Positions 46,346-57,823 of a stretch of DNA of 64,000 bases are shown piece after piece; the first letter of the stretch is position 1; every line of letters begins with the position of its first letter. The translations under genes and the position numbers were made by a program. Origin of the DNA: Byssovorax sp. (GTDB lineage: Bacteria; Myxococcota_A; Polyangia; Polyangiales; Polyangiaceae). The stretch spans positions 1 to 64,000 of the forward strand of contig JANYGI010000113.1 in NCBI GenBank assembly GCA_025362495.1. The letters run 5' to 3'. The notes beneath the pieces were generated by a model. The model did no database searches. It saw only the letters and a program-made list of their open reading frames with translations, and was not told the DNA's origin.

Positions 46346-50530
<4,185 letters not shown>

Positions 50531-52340: not shown

Positions 52341-53378
52341 TCAGGGGCAGGCGGTGGGCGCGCCCGCGGCGATCCATGCGCTGATGGCGTTCAGCTCCGC
52401 CGGCAGCAGCTCCTTGCCGCGCCCGTCCTCGGGCGGCATCGGCAGGCCGACGACGACCGTGGCGCGGAGCCGGGCGATCTCGTCGAGTCGCGTTTGCTCG
52501 AGCGCGGGCGTGCTGGCCCTGGCGCCGTTCCTGGCGTTGGCGAGCAGCTTATAGAGCAGGTAGCTGTTGCCGGGTCGCGTGGGATCGATGATCGGCATCG
52601 CGCGACCGAAGCTCGACGGGCTGACCTCGGGCTGGGCGGCGTGCTCGCCGGTCTGGGTCTCGTGCGCGACGTGCGGCGAGGTGGCCGCGAGCCGCGCCAC
52701 GCTCGAGAAATCCAGCCCTTCGGCCGCGCCGAGGTGGACGCCGTGGTCGTCGGCGCCGGCGCTGGTGTGGCACCCGTTCGCGGCGCAGGTGTCGCGGAGC
52801 ACGTGCGGGTACAGCTCGCCGCAGAAGTCGACGGCGGGCGGCGTGTCGGGCAGCGAGTCTGCGGGCTCGACGTCGCGCGTGGTGAACGTGCGGCTCGCCG
52901 CGCGCTCGAGCGGAGCGCCGTCGAAGGCCTGGATGCCAGTGGCCGTGCCGTCGCCCGGCGGCGGGAACACGCTGATCGTGTAGTGCATCCCCGGGACGAG
53001 CCCGGCGCTCGTGTCGGCCTGGCGATAGACGATCTGGCGCAGCACCGGATCGTACGCGGGATCGAGGAAGACGCCGTTCGCGCAGCCTTTCGCGGCCTTC
53101 ACGCCATTCACCGAGGGCTGCAAGCAGACCGACTGGCGGAACGCGGTGGTGGGGAGAAGAAAGCGGTCGAACGTGACGCGGAAGCTCGTGCGAGCGACGA
53201 TGCCCGCGGTCGATCCGCTCGGATCGATCACGGCGTAGCTCGATGGAAGCCCCCCGTCAGTCGCGGTCGCGACGGCAATGTCGACGAGATTGACGGGGGC
53301 GAGAGGGGTGGGTCCGGGATGGTCGACGTCGCAAGCAGTCGTCGCCAGCGCGACGAGCGCGCCTACGACTCGGAGTAC
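52341..53378 (-). CDS. Lipoprotein with a haem-binding-like CX4CH motif
   Basis: The frame encodes a lipoprotein signal (VVGALVALATTAC) and a ~330-residue mature part. Beta-sandwich-like sequence (SFRVTFDRFLLPTT, HYTISVFPPPGDG) is followed by CGELYPHVLRDTCAANGCHT, with CAANGCH as a CX4CH motif. A C-terminal region GNSYLLYKLLANA ... GLPMPPEDG ... AISAWIAAGAP resembles the cytochrome-like domain of planctomycete-type proteins. No ATG, GTG or TTG fits just before the signal peptide; the nearest codons are GTA CTC at 53378, inside the end of the preceding gene. Either a non-standard start is used or the sequence has an error there. It may be part of the electron-transfer cluster. Confidence 0.65.
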   Translation of the reverse strand, partial: VLRVVGALVALATTACDVDHPGPTPLAPVNLVDIAVATATDGGLPSSYAVIDPSGSTAGIVARTSFRVTFDRFLLPTTAFRQSVCLQPSVNGVKAAKGCANGVFLDPAYDPVLRQIVYRQADTSAGLVPGMHYTISVFPPPGDGTATGIQAFDGAPLERAASRTFTTRDVEPADSLPDTPPAVDFCGELYPHVLRDTCAANGCHTSAGADDHGVHLGAAEGLDFSSVARLAATSPHVAHETQTGEHAAQPEVSPSSFGRAMPIIDPTRPGNSYLLYKLLANARNGARASTPALEQTRLDEIARLRATVVVGLPMPPEDGRGKELLPAELNAISAWIAAGAPTACP

Positions 53379-53617
53379 GTGGAGATCTGCTCGCGGATGA
53401 CCCGCTCGTTGATCCCCGCCTGAATGTGCTCTTTCAGACAGTCCGCCAGGGTCAGCAGCATGTCGTCGACGCCCTTCTCTTCGATCAGCTTCGAGAGGAG
53501 CTGCCGGGCTTCGCGACCGTCGTCTTCCCGGAGAAAGTTGCGCACCGTATCCAGGGTGATCTCCCCCTGAAAGTCGATGTACATGTTGTCGAGCAGGTAC
53601 TTGATCAGCTCCTTCAC
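53363..53617 (-). CDS. Small helical protein of unknown function
   Basis: The 84-residue product starts at a GTG with AAGGAGA upstream: VKELIKYLLDNMYIDFQGEI. It is predominantly helical and acidic (TVRNFLREDDGREARQLLSKLIEEKG). No signal peptide or known motif is visible. It overlaps the following lipoprotein gene by 16 bp and lies 249 bp after the multihaem cytochrome gene on the same strand. The gap 53618-53866 shows no other gene. I do not recognise the family. Confidence 0.75.
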   Translation of the reverse strand: MKELIKYLLDNMYIDFQGEITLDTVRNFLREDDGREARQLLSKLIEEKGVDDMLLTLADCLKEHIQAGINERVIREQISTYSES

Positions 53618-53866: not shown

Positions 53867-55321
53867 TCATCGGCAGCTCCCGAGCAGGCTGTCCCGCCCG
53901 TCGTGGCAGACCAGGCAAGGGCGAGGGTTGCGCTGGAGCGCGAGCCCACATTTCGATCGGAAGCCGAGGGGGTGCGGGTTCACCCCCTGGCCGCCGGCGA
54001 TGCCCTTGGTCGCGTGGCAGGTCGTGCAGTCGCGCTCGGTGTGGCACGAGACGCAGGCGTTGAGGTTGCGCTCCGCCTCCCAGGCGTGGTGCTGCGGGCC
54101 GCGCGGCGCTGTCGTCCAGACCTCGGGCGGCAGGTGGAAGCGGCGACCCGAGAGGTTGCCGCTGGCGGCGTCACGCGCGACGCCCGTGCGGCGGTGGCAG
54201 TCGGCGCAGAACGTCTGCTCCTGGTGACACGAGACGCAGCGCGGGCTGTCCTGCCGCGCGGCCTGGGGATGCATCGAGAGGAAATCGTTGGGGTGGATAT
54301 TGCGCGGGCGCACCTTGCCGTCGTGGCAATCGGCGCAGTACTTGTCGGTGTGGCAGCTGCCGCAGAAGGCGCTGTCGTTCGCGGCCGCGGTCTTGTGGCG
54401 CTCGATCCAGTCGGCCGCGTGGCCGGAGTCGTGGAGCCAGCGCGGGGGCAGCAGCTTGCCGGTCGAGAACGCGACCTGCATGCGCCCATCCGGCTGCGAG
54501 AGGTGGCACGTCGTGCACTCGCTCTTCGCCTCGCCCTCGGCCGGGCCGCTCATCGCGTGGCAGGTGAAGCACCCCGCCATGCGCGGCATCTGCTCGCGCG
54601 TGGCGAGCTCGAGCTCGTCGATCTTGCCGTGGCACTGGCCGCACTGGATGTTGCGGGCGAGGTGCAGTTTGTGCGGGAAATGAAGGTTGGGCGTGGGGAT
54701 CACCACGGCCGCCACCTTGCCGCCAACGCCTGCCTTCGCGCCGACGTGGCAGAACGAGCACTTGCCCATCGGGATGGCCGAGGCCTTCACCGCGCGGAGA
54801 TCGGAGTGGTCGGTCTCGTGGCAGCCGTCGCACGCCTTGGCCGGCTTCGGCAGCAAGCGGTCGGCGGCGTCGACGCTGCCGTACGCGTCGGAGTGGCACG
54901 AGCGGCAGGTGAGCTTGAGCTCCTTGACGTGCTTCTTGTGGTTGAAGCGCAGGGGGATGGTCTGCGGCGGGAAGATCTCCTCGCTCGGGAGCGGGCTCGC
55001 CCCGGAGCCGGGCGGCATCCACTCGAGCGGGACCTCGGCGTCGCCGGGCATCGCGGCGCGCCCGCTCCGCGTCGTGGCGTCGTCGTCGATCGGCGGCGCG
55101 AACAGCGTCGTCGGCGCGGGCAGCGGCGAGATGGCCGAGCCGGTCGGCGCGGGGTTGATGGTCGAGCCCGAGGGGGCCGGCGTGGGCAGCGGCACCACGA
55201 CCGGCGCGGGGATGTCGGCCGAGGCGTCGGGGTTCAGCAGCGCGAGCACGAGGGCCGCGACGCAAGCCACGAGCGCGAGCCAGCCGGGGAGGGGAGCGGT
55301 AGCGCGCCTGCGAGGAATCAT
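53867..55321 (-). CDS. Multihaem c-type cytochrome, 13 CxxCH motifs
   Basis: The 484-residue protein has an N-terminal hydrophobic segment (WLALVACVAALVLALLN) acting as signal or anchor and a Pro/Ala/Ser linker. Thirteen CxxCH haem motifs follow: CRSCH, CDGCH, CSFCH, CGQCH, CFTCH, CTTCH, CGSCH, CADCH, CVSCH, CADCH, CVSCH, CTTCH and CLVCH. Several sit as close pairs, as in decahaem-type electron conduits. Many spare histidines are available as axial ligands. The start codon overlaps the stop of an outer-membrane barrel gene by ATGA. The pair resembles porin-cytochrome complexes that pass electrons across the outer membrane. Confidence 0.93.
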   Translation of the reverse strand: MIPRRRATAPLPGWLALVACVAALVLALLNPDASADIPAPVVVPLPTPAPSGSTINPAPTGSAISPLPAPTTLFAPPIDDDATTRSGRAAMPGDAEVPLEWMPPGSGASPLPSEEIFPPQTIPLRFNHKKHVKELKLTCRSCHSDAYGSVDAADRLLPKPAKACDGCHETDHSDLRAVKASAIPMGKCSFCHVGAKAGVGGKVAAVVIPTPNLHFPHKLHLARNIQCGQCHGKIDELELATREQMPRMAGCFTCHAMSGPAEGEAKSECTTCHLSQPDGRMQVAFSTGKLLPPRWLHDSGHAADWIERHKTAAANDSAFCGSCHTDKYCADCHDGKVRPRNIHPNDFLSMHPQAARQDSPRCVSCHQEQTFCADCHRRTGVARDAASGNLSGRRFHLPPEVWTTAPRGPQHHAWEAERNLNACVSCHTERDCTTCHATKGIAGGQGVNPHPLGFRSKCGLALQRNPRPCLVCHDGRDSLLGSCR

Positions 55322-56997
55322 TTGAGCACCAGCAGATTGATCAGGGCGAGCACGCGGTAGCGCTGGCCGACGAGCCGGTTGATGTCGTGCTCCCACTCGA
55401 GCCGGAAATTCGCGGCCCGGAGCGGCGCGAAGCCCGCGGCGAGGACGTAGCCGAACGAGGTCGCGTCGCGATCGGGCCGCGTCGGATCGTGCCAGCCGTA
55501 GAGCGAGGTGCGCGCGCCGAGGGTGTAGCGGCCGCCGTCGAGCCCCTTCTCGGTGCCGAGATCGACGCCCTCGCGGCTCCCGCGCGCGCCGGTCTGGAGC
55601 ATGCCCTTGAGCGTGACGTTGCCGGATCCGAAGCGATAGCGCGCGTTGACGTTGCCGAGCAGGTCGAGCGTGGTGCTGACGGCGCGGTTCTCGGGCAGGC
55701 GCGACCACGGCTGCGCGCCGGTCGCCGCGTTGCCGCCGGTCGACGGATCGATCCCCGTGGTCGGGCTCGGGATCGTCGTGCACACCGGCATCGTCTTCGC
55801 GGCGTTGCACTCGCCGACGCCGAACGTCGCGGGATCGCCGTCGGCCGACCACAGGCGCGCGCCGCCGGACATCGTCGCGTCGAAGCGCTTGGTGAAGCGG
55901 ATCGAGGCGCGCCCCGTGATCGAGGTGACGGGGCTCCTGGTGAACCAGTTCCAGATCGAGTCGGCGTCGAACGTGGGGACGAAGTAGTCGACGTCGGCGC
56001 CGATCGTCCCGCGCTTGCCGAGGTAGGCCTCGACGCCGCCGGTGTAGCTCGCGACGATCTGGCTGTAGAGGTCGTAGCTGAAGCCGCCCTTGACCGTGCC
56101 GAGATCGTTCTTGATGAGCTCACCGGCCCAGCCGATTCGCTCCTGCGAGAGGCGCGTGCCGGCGATGGTGCGGTAGCCGCCGCCGACCGGATCGGGGAAC
56201 ATCGTCACGACCGACGTGCCGGTGTTGTAGACGCGGCGGTACGAGAAGCGCCCGTGGATCCAGCGCGGGCCGGCGCTCTCGATCGCGAAGCCGAACGCGG
56301 GCGCGGGCTCGGCGTACTGGTACGCGGGGTAGTCGGTGACGCTCGGCATGCTGGCGCCGATGCCGAAGCCGGTGTGGCTGCCGCGCCACTCGCCCTGCGA
56401 TTCGAAGCGCGAGGTCGAGAGCGGGAGGCCACCGCGCTGCTCGAGGCCGGCGTAGGCCTCGGCTTGCACATAGAACGGCGTGGTGATCCGCACGAGGCCG
56501 CCGTCGAAGCCCCACCACCCGAGCGCGTCGGTCACGTATTGACGACCGATCTTGAAGCCGAGGAGCCCGTGCGCGAGGTTGCGCCCCTCGACGTAGCCGT
56601 ACATCAGATCGAGCGGCGCGGACTCGAGGCCAGGGACGAAGCGGAGGCCGTTGCCGGCGCTGGTGGCGTACGTCGTCTCGCCACCGCCCTGGCGATCGTC
56701 GAGGTGCGCGTTGACGCCGAAGTCGGCGTTGAGCCGCATACGCACGACGAGCCGATAGTCAGCCTCACCGGGCCGATGTTCGCCCTGCAAGTTGTAGACG
56801 CCGAGGCCCACCGTCTGGAGCATGCGGCGACGCTGGAGGACGACGTCGCCCCACGGTGACGTGACCTCGTAGCCCTGCAGCGCGGTGTCGGCCTGGACGT
56901 CGAAGTCGGCGGCCCGGGACTCTGTCGGCGTGAGCACCGCGAGGGCCGTCGCGAGCGCGCAGAACCTCGGGCGTCGCGCCAAAGGACGATCGCGCAT
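55318..56997 (-). CDS. Outer-membrane beta-barrel, porin partner of the multihaem cytochrome
   Basis: The 559-residue protein has a signal peptide (CALATALAVLTPTESRA). The mature part is made of alternating aromatic/small residues in barrel strands (RLVVRMRLNADFGVNAHLDD, GFKIGRQYVTDALGWWGFDG, INARYRFG-like strands) and ends in a final strand VLALINLLVLK. The size and the coupled multihaem cytochrome suggest an MtrB/PioB-like role as a sheath for an electron-conducting cytochrome. Direct homology to MtrB was not recognised by eye. The ATG at 56997 is used because it opens at the signal peptide. Confidence 0.75.
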   Translation of the reverse strand: MRDRPLARRPRFCALATALAVLTPTESRAADFDVQADTALQGYEVTSPWGDVVLQRRRMLQTVGLGVYNLQGEHRPGEADYRLVVRMRLNADFGVNAHLDDRQGGGETTYATSAGNGLRFVPGLESAPLDLMYGYVEGRNLAHGLLGFKIGRQYVTDALGWWGFDGGLVRITTPFYVQAEAYAGLEQRGGLPLSTSRFESQGEWRGSHTGFGIGASMPSVTDYPAYQYAEPAPAFGFAIESAGPRWIHGRFSYRRVYNTGTSVVTMFPDPVGGGYRTIAGTRLSQERIGWAGELIKNDLGTVKGGFSYDLYSQIVASYTGGVEAYLGKRGTIGADVDYFVPTFDADSIWNWFTRSPVTSITGRASIRFTKRFDATMSGGARLWSADGDPATFGVGECNAAKTMPVCTTIPSPTTGIDPSTGGNAATGAQPWSRLPENRAVSTTLDLLGNVNARYRFGSGNVTLKGMLQTGARGSREGVDLGTEKGLDGGRYTLGARTSLYGWHDPTRPDRDATSFGYVLAAGFAPLRAANFRLEWEHDINRLVGQRYRVLALINLLVLK

Positions 56998-57058: not shown

Positions 57059-57823
57059 TCAGTACGAAGGACCCTTCTTGATCTTGCCGTCGGGTCCCAC
57101 CGAGTACCCCGCAGTGTCGCGCAGCGTCGCGGCCGCCTTCGCGCGCAGCTCTTCCGGGAGGGCCCAGCCGCGGAAGCTCAGCCCCTCGGCGACCTTGTTC
57201 TTGATACGCACGGACTCCTCGGCCTCGAGGAGCGCCACGAGCGCGGGGACGCACGCCGCGTCGTTGTTCGCGAAGGTGGTCTGCACCGCGTGGAAGCGCA
57301 CCGTCTCGTTCACGTCTTCGAGGAAGGGCGCGACGGCGTCGCGCACGTCGTCGTCGACCACGGCCTCGAGCGCGGCGATGATCTGGAGCTTCGGCTCGAC
57401 GTTGCGCGCGTACTCGGTGTCGTGGCGGCCGAGCAGCACGATCAGCTCGTCGCGGTACTCGTCGTCGTCGAGCAGCTCGCGCAGGATCTTCATCGGCCAG
57501 GTGAGCGCCTCGGCCTTCACGCAGAACTCGAGCACGCTCGGCACCGCATCTTTGCCCGCGGCGAGGACGCCCTGGAAGGCGATCTCTTTCTCTTCCTGAT
57601 CGGTGATCGAGGGATCGATGACGAACGTGAAGCGCTTCATCAGCGCCGCCGCGGCGTCGCCGGACTTCATCTCTGCGAGCTGCTGCAGAGCCTCGAGGCG
57701 GTCGTAGGTCTGGGCCCGCTTGTCGGCCGCGACCCGCGCGGGGCCCGCGACCTTCTTGTCGGTCGGCGCCGCCGAGCCGGCGGGGGGAGGACTGCTCTTG
57801 CGAAGGAAATCGAAGAAACCCAC
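57059..57823 (-). CDS. HEAT-repeat-like protein
   Basis: The 254-residue protein starts MGFFDFLRKSSPPPAGS, a short amphipathic N-terminus, and then forms helical repeats (DRLEALQQLAEMKSGDAAAA, VPSVLEFCVKAEALTWPMKI, RDELIVLLGRHDTEYARN, VPALVALLEAEESVRIKN). These are HEAT-like, suggesting a protein-binding scaffold. No signal peptide is seen, so it is cytoplasmic or membrane-associated. It lies 61 bp upstream of the barrel-cytochrome operon on the same strand. Whether it belongs to that transcript is not known. Confidence 0.82.
   Translation of the reverse strand: MGFFDFLRKSSPPPAGSAAPTDKKVAGPARVAADKRAQTYDRLEALQQLAEMKSGDAAAALMKRFTFVIDPSITDQEEKEIAFQGVLAAGKDAVPSVLEFCVKAEALTWPMKILRELLDDDEYRDELIVLLGRHDTEYARNVEPKLQIIAALEAVVDDDVRDAVAPFLEDVNETVRFHAVQTTFANNDAACVPALVALLEAEESVRIKNKVAEGLSFRGWALPEELRAKAAATLRDTAGYSVGPDGKIKKGPSY

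Follow-up and report, generated by a model that had tools for sequence, protein, structure and literature searches.

Our analysis of a Byssovorax sp. contig revealed two overlapping genes that very probably encode a two-part outer-membrane electron conduit, consisting of a predicted barrel and a separate multihaem cytochrome. Conservation of the pair extends over much of the Myxococcota and takes in the aerobic soil genera Sorangium and Polyangium. The original prediction had proposed a conduit from the gene layout, and we consider that reading strongly supported rather than proven, because the two genes are strictly co-conserved and mostly overlapping, because shortened relatives of the cytochrome all retain the same one of its two halves, and because homologous pairs in other families adjoin multihaem lipoproteins, some with an MtrC/MtrF-like domain and, at one locus, a NapC/NirT-type cytochrome. 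Precedent for such an arrangement is further provided by published two-gene porin-cytochrome (Pcc) clusters (PMC4245776).

Locus and operon layout

The window is the 64,000-nt stretch of contig JANYGI010000113.1 (GCA_025362495.1) that was analysed, and all coordinates are positions within it. On its minus strand, the barrel gene (55318-56997, with its ATG at 56997) encodes a 559-aa protein with a signal peptide and a predicted plugless outer-membrane barrel, and the cytochrome gene (53867-55321) encodes a 484-aa, 13-haem c-type cytochrome with an N-terminal export signal and a Pro-rich linker. The barrel stop and the cytochrome start share an ATGA (55318-55321), an overlap that the original prediction had reported correctly, as it had the coordinates, and that fits coupled translation and one-to-one assembly. 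The operon continues on the same strand with a gene for an 84-aa protein (53363-53617; GTG start, no signal peptide), constant in length and highly conserved in Polyangia, and then with a lipoprotein frame (52341-53366) whose start codon is unclear and which carries a lipobox, a Met-Pro motif, and one haem-type motif (CAANGCH).

Downstream of the operon lies a gene for a 1394-aa kinase-GAF-sigma54 activator (46346-50530), which may be the operon's regulator; proteins of comparable size (1389-1437 aa) occur near the operon in loci L038, L040, and L048. Upstream of the barrel, a gene at 57059-57823 gave a weak HEAT-repeat match, and a relative of it occupies the corresponding position in L038 and L039.

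Conservation and coinheritance of the pair

The conservation counts rest on profile searches over all frames, codon-based gene calls being unreliable in several high-GC loci. Barrel relatives were found in 56 of 282 Myxococcota genomes. Among larger loci from 40 genomes, the cytochrome adjoins the barrel in 39 (38 with 13 motifs, one with 12), and in the fortieth the contig stops at the barrel. A scan of named genomes returned 148 barrel relatives, of which we kept the 80 named as Myxococcota or under the older label of Deltaproteobacteria; these include Sorangium cellulosum, Polyangium fumosum, other Polyangium, Minicystis rosea, and Labilithrix. Pooling the two sets, which overlap in part, gave 120 loci, in which the cytochrome lies beside the barrel wherever there is enough DNA (114/114), with 13 motifs in 107 loci, 12 in four, and seven in three (six run off the contig). 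Of 98 distinct loci, 93 keep the start overlap, at −4 or −1. A profile search across 377 genomes further recovered strong cytochrome matches (E < 1e-100) in 29 of the 35 genomes from the same family, as well as in many other families.

The original prediction held that such a conduit would be unexpected in an aerobic soil myxobacterium, and this part needs changing: among cultured hosts, Sorangium and Polyangium, for example, are indeed aerobic degraders or predators, and the pair is widespread in Polyangia, as the same-family genomes and its presence in Sorangium, Polyangium, and Minicystis attest. In the cytochrome tree, the window's protein groups with that of Minicystis rosea, with modest support. 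Barrel and cytochrome distances across 109 pairs are tightly correlated (r = 0.94; the largest of 999 permutations reached 0.25), a correlation that vertical inheritance alone could suffice to explain. In comparisons of closely related genomes of Polyangium or Sorangium, dN/dS ranges from 0.07 to 0.37 for the barrel and from 0.08 to 0.22 for the cytochrome, and both are under purifying selection.

A barrel apart from MtrB

The AlphaFold2 model of the barrel (mean pLDDT 80, with 28 relatives as input) predicts 22 long strands after the signal peptide and lacks a separate plug domain, in agreement with the outer-membrane barrel proposed originally. Its sequence matched no Pfam family, searches against NCBIfam and PDB sequences added nothing, and PF11854 (MtrB_PioB) gave no match at E up to 1. 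Profile comparison by hhalign with eight Myxococcota MtrB_PioB proteins returned a probability of 5.1%. On the last two results we rejected membership of the barrel in MtrB/PioB, to which it is not detectably related in sequence, and they support the earlier suggestion of a separate family. More broadly, homology to any known conduit porin went undetected in profile, fold, and PDB sequence searches. In fold searches with Foldseek and VIA-align, the barrel matched porins of a generic kind and pilus ushers. FimD-type ushers scored best over the full length (Z about 16), a match that we take as a likeness of size only and not as usher identity. MtrB was absent among the fold matches listed, an absence that carries no weight against MtrB likeness.

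One weak match to PF11854 in another part of the window's genome (G000:C25) was set aside, as no haem gene adjoins it. Genuine MtrB_PioB barrels do occur in other Myxococcota families (f24, f28, f32, f35, and f36; loci L157-L164), where a 10-haem gene lies upstream, the opposite gene order to that of the window pair.

A cytochrome of two halves

The count of 13 CxxCH motifs given in the original prediction was exact: they lie at residues 139, 164, 188, 227, 251, 269, 320, 329, 362, 372, 423, 432, and 469 of the 484-aa translation, compared with a mean of 0.1 and a maximum of 2 when the residues of the protein were shuffled. The motifs fall into a group of six (residues 139-273) and a group of seven (320-473), which define an N-terminal half (54497-55003, minus strand; residues about 107-275) and a C-terminal half (53870-54448, minus strand; residues about 292-484). 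Pfam returned Cytochrome_C7 and c3-type matches, and the top PDB sequence match of the cytochrome profile was the dodecahaem 3ov0. The first half matched c7-type proteins in profile searches and aligned to ActA of alternative complex III (VIA-align; Z 5.7-6.5 over 131-144 residues, with 22-28% identity), and a fold search of the cytochrome gave matches to this N-terminal half only. The C-terminal half contains, in addition to its seven motifs, seven conserved non-motif histidines (301, 309, 343, 351, 396, 412, and 450), a number sufficient to give each haem there bis-histidine ligation, and an invariant cysteine pair (458/483).

Seven shortened cytochromes (L141, L143, L154, L210, L212, L213, and L228) match profile positions from 234-240 to 424 only, which is the C-terminal, seven-haem half. 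They lie on several separate branches of the cytochrome tree, with their exact placement unsure because of long branches and partial columns. Since all seven keep the C-terminal half, that half is probably the one held by the barrel, and the N-terminal half is probably a periplasmic extension. In-frame TAG counts in distant cytochromes looked odd, but have a simple explanation in L216, the one compared by coordinates, where the alignment overruns the terminal stop by one codon.

Homologous pairs and other electron-transfer genes

The homologous barrel and 12- or 13-haem gene of families f19, f23, f58, and f59 have as neighbours multihaem proteins with 10-34 motifs, most of which have a lipobox. 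At L230, L236, and L238, the cytochrome and large multihaem proteins were seen, with the barrel below threshold. The large proteins of L231, L232, L233, and L234 passed the cut-off for PF22113 (an MtrC/MtrF-like domain), a broad model with some match in 138 of 188 genomes. A NapC/NirT-type cytochrome follows directly downstream in L234 (PF03264; 41 bits, cut-off 24), and such a neighbourhood has, as far as gene content indicates, the layout of a quinol-to-cell-surface electron-transfer chain. Some of these multihaem proteins are very large, with 28-34 CxxCH motifs and, in several cases, a lipobox (L231:9138-12659, L232:7993-11958, L235:683-5590, and L239:10263-14954), and a 10-haem lipoprotein near the conduit in L233 (10673-13324) combines a collagen-like repeat (PF01391) with an MtrC-like domain.

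Within the window's own genome, we found neither a NapC/NirT protein nor a strong MtrC-like protein, and the kind of closely spaced CxxCH pairs searched for turned up nowhere else. The genome does contain terminal-oxidase and complex III-like genes. Two clusters each encode a 4Fe-4S protein and an ActA-like pentahaem protein, accompanied in one by NrfD and in the other by COX1; both resemble alternative complex III and might pass electrons to or from the conduit.

The downstream genes and a possible CUG start

The 84-aa protein, which matched no Pfam family above cut-off, was found in 88 of the 120 loci, and relatives of the lipoprotein in 89. Of 75 distinct loci, 72 place the lipoprotein frame at −4 relative to the 84-aa gene's stop, and 65 of these have CTG there, such that the conserved CUG overlaps the stop as CTGA. 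In 54 of the 72, there is no ATG, GTG, or TTG that leaves room for a signal peptide ahead of the lipobox cysteine, and the in-frame starts further upstream are distant, falling well back inside the 84-aa gene or ahead of it. The last serine codon of that gene is pyrimidine-ended in nearly all loci, compared with the use of TCG or TCA in 8 of 33 Ser-ending genes in the same loci. The simplest reading of these patterns is that the lipoprotein starts at the conserved CUG by termination-reinitiation; a −1 frameshift is a possible alternative source of the lipoprotein. Three of the 75 loci do not fit a CUG start, and the window is one of them: it has GTAG at the overlap point (53363-53366) with no evident lipoprotein start, and it alone has TCG as the last serine codon.

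Between the CTGA point and the lipobox, L040, L091, L094, L150, and L152 carry in-frame short peptide repeats (e.g., DSEAPY and LTAPRQ), owing to which the leader varies widely in length while the frame stays open. In Sorangium comparisons (L081/L084, L082/L086, and L083/L084), dN/dS of the lipoprotein is 0.54-0.87, against about 0.03-0.08 for the adjoining 84-aa gene, and such fast change would fit surface exposure or relaxed constraint.

Proposed function and alternative explanations

In the mechanism we propose, the predicted 22-strand plugless barrel would serve as a sheath around the cytochrome's seven-haem C-terminal half, which would be the wire, with the N-terminal, six-haem, ActA-like half reaching into the periplasm and exchanging electrons with quinol-linked carriers. 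In Polyangia, the outer partner would probably be the downstream mono-haem lipoprotein, or else the wire might meet an external acceptor directly; in the other Myxococcota families, the large multihaem lipoprotein would take that role. As to the direction of flow, electron export under oxygen limitation is our first guess.

The similarity of the N-terminal half to c7 and ActA proteins, the dodecahaem as the top PDB sequence match, and the resemblance of the barrel to generic porins and ushers could also be accommodated by a cytochrome that is fully periplasmic, acting as an electron store or relay in the manner of c7 chains and dodecahaem GSU1996, next to a barrel that is a separate, co-expressed solute channel for iron or a redox mediator. 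We consider this improbable, given that the pairing is strictly one-to-one and the genes overlap, that the shortened cytochromes lose precisely the c7/ActA-like half and keep the C-terminal half along with the barrel, and that homologous pairs adjoin large multihaem lipoproteins. A variant of the conduit reading that differs only in purpose deserves more credit, even if it is doubtful: the main task in Polyangia may be non-respiratory surface redox chemistry, such as ferric-chelate reduction for uptake, the activation of secreted oxidative enzymes on polymers, defence, or predation. This would suit an aerobic degrading or predatory life like that of cultured Sorangium and Polyangium, and an operon that has a mono-haem lipoprotein and no large reductase; set against it, iron-uptake and oxidative-enzyme genes were not detected as conserved neighbours in rough gene calls. 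It is unlikely, by our estimate, that the pair instead imports electrons to feed aerobic respiration, as MtoAB and PioAB do with ferrous iron. Two-component barrel and cytochrome clusters lacking an outer cytochrome do occur in iron oxidisers (PMC4245776), and this genome has terminal-oxidase and complex III-like genes, but the large multihaem lipoproteins and the NapC/NirT cytochrome beside relatives elsewhere suggest export in those families.

The chances seem to us about even that the outer membrane of the aerobic, partly predatory Polyangia has, as a near-universal part, a six-plus-seven-haem wire in a barrel family that arose separately from MtrB. If so, this lineage, which is not regarded as electroactive, would have extracellular electron exchange among its basic traits, and the outer partner, the mono-haem lipoprotein, would differ from those of metal reducers. 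If the conduit reading is right, a large number of Polyangia in soil and sediment, among them producers of natural products such as Sorangium, carry an outer-membrane wire, with a bearing on survival in anoxic aggregates and on the reduction of minerals or humic matter. These culturable aerobic hosts offer a setting in which to test such wires outside metal respiration, and the shortened forms, by indicating the barrel-associated half, make assembly testable with defined halves.

Comparison with known systems

We found no description of 13-haem conduits or of extracellular electron transfer in Polyangia in the open-licence literature, and a text search of an Mtr survey (PMC8805035) yielded no mention of Myxococcota. 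With MtrAB, MtoAB, and PioAB, the window pair has in common a barrel, a multihaem cytochrome, and a proposed wire through a sheath. The barrel model has 22 strands, against 26 in solved MtrB (PMC7198977). The pair differs from them in that their cytochromes have 10 motifs rather than 13, and in that their cytochrome gene lies upstream of the barrel rather than downstream. Identity with MtrAB was rejected on two counts, the barrel falling outside PF11854 and the cytochrome not being a decahaem protein. A fused cytochrome-porin of the Cyc2 type was likewise rejected, as no CxxCH occurs in the barrel protein and the cytochrome forms a chain of its own. Likeness to ActA is confined to the N-terminal half of the cytochrome; the window operon lacks complex III partners, and its ActA-like half is fused to a second half with seven haems and is accompanied by a barrel gene. 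The three-part layout of Geobacter OmbB-OmaB-OmcB, with a multihaem lipoprotein, a barrel, and a periplasmic cytochrome, matches the relatives in f19, f23, f58, and f59, a likeness drawn from layout and not from sequence; the large multihaem lipoprotein is absent from the window operon.

The closest arrangement is found among the Pcc clusters described in six phyla by Shi and colleagues, with porins of 18-22 predicted strands and cytochromes of 5-14 motifs (PMC4245776), ranges into which the window's 22 strands and 13 motifs fall. The two-gene clusters of this kind (Anaeromyxobacter, Group IV) likewise consist of a porin-like barrel gene and a periplasmic multihaem cytochrome gene. An outer multihaem cytochrome is absent there, as it is beside the window pair, an absence that is not defining for the type. 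The periplasmic cytochromes from two-gene clusters of Anaeromyxobacter and Kuenenia have 12 or 14 haems in 338-344 aa (PMC4245776), compared with 13 in 484 aa here, and the window operon differs in continuing with the 84-aa protein and the mono-haem lipoprotein. For the two-gene clusters, the extra haems have been argued to make up for the absent outer cytochrome (PMC4245776), an idea that the window pair, with 13 haems and no large outer cytochrome, fits. We file the pair as a variant of the porin-cytochrome kind, likened to Pcc by layout and by strand and motif numbers rather than by sequence comparison.
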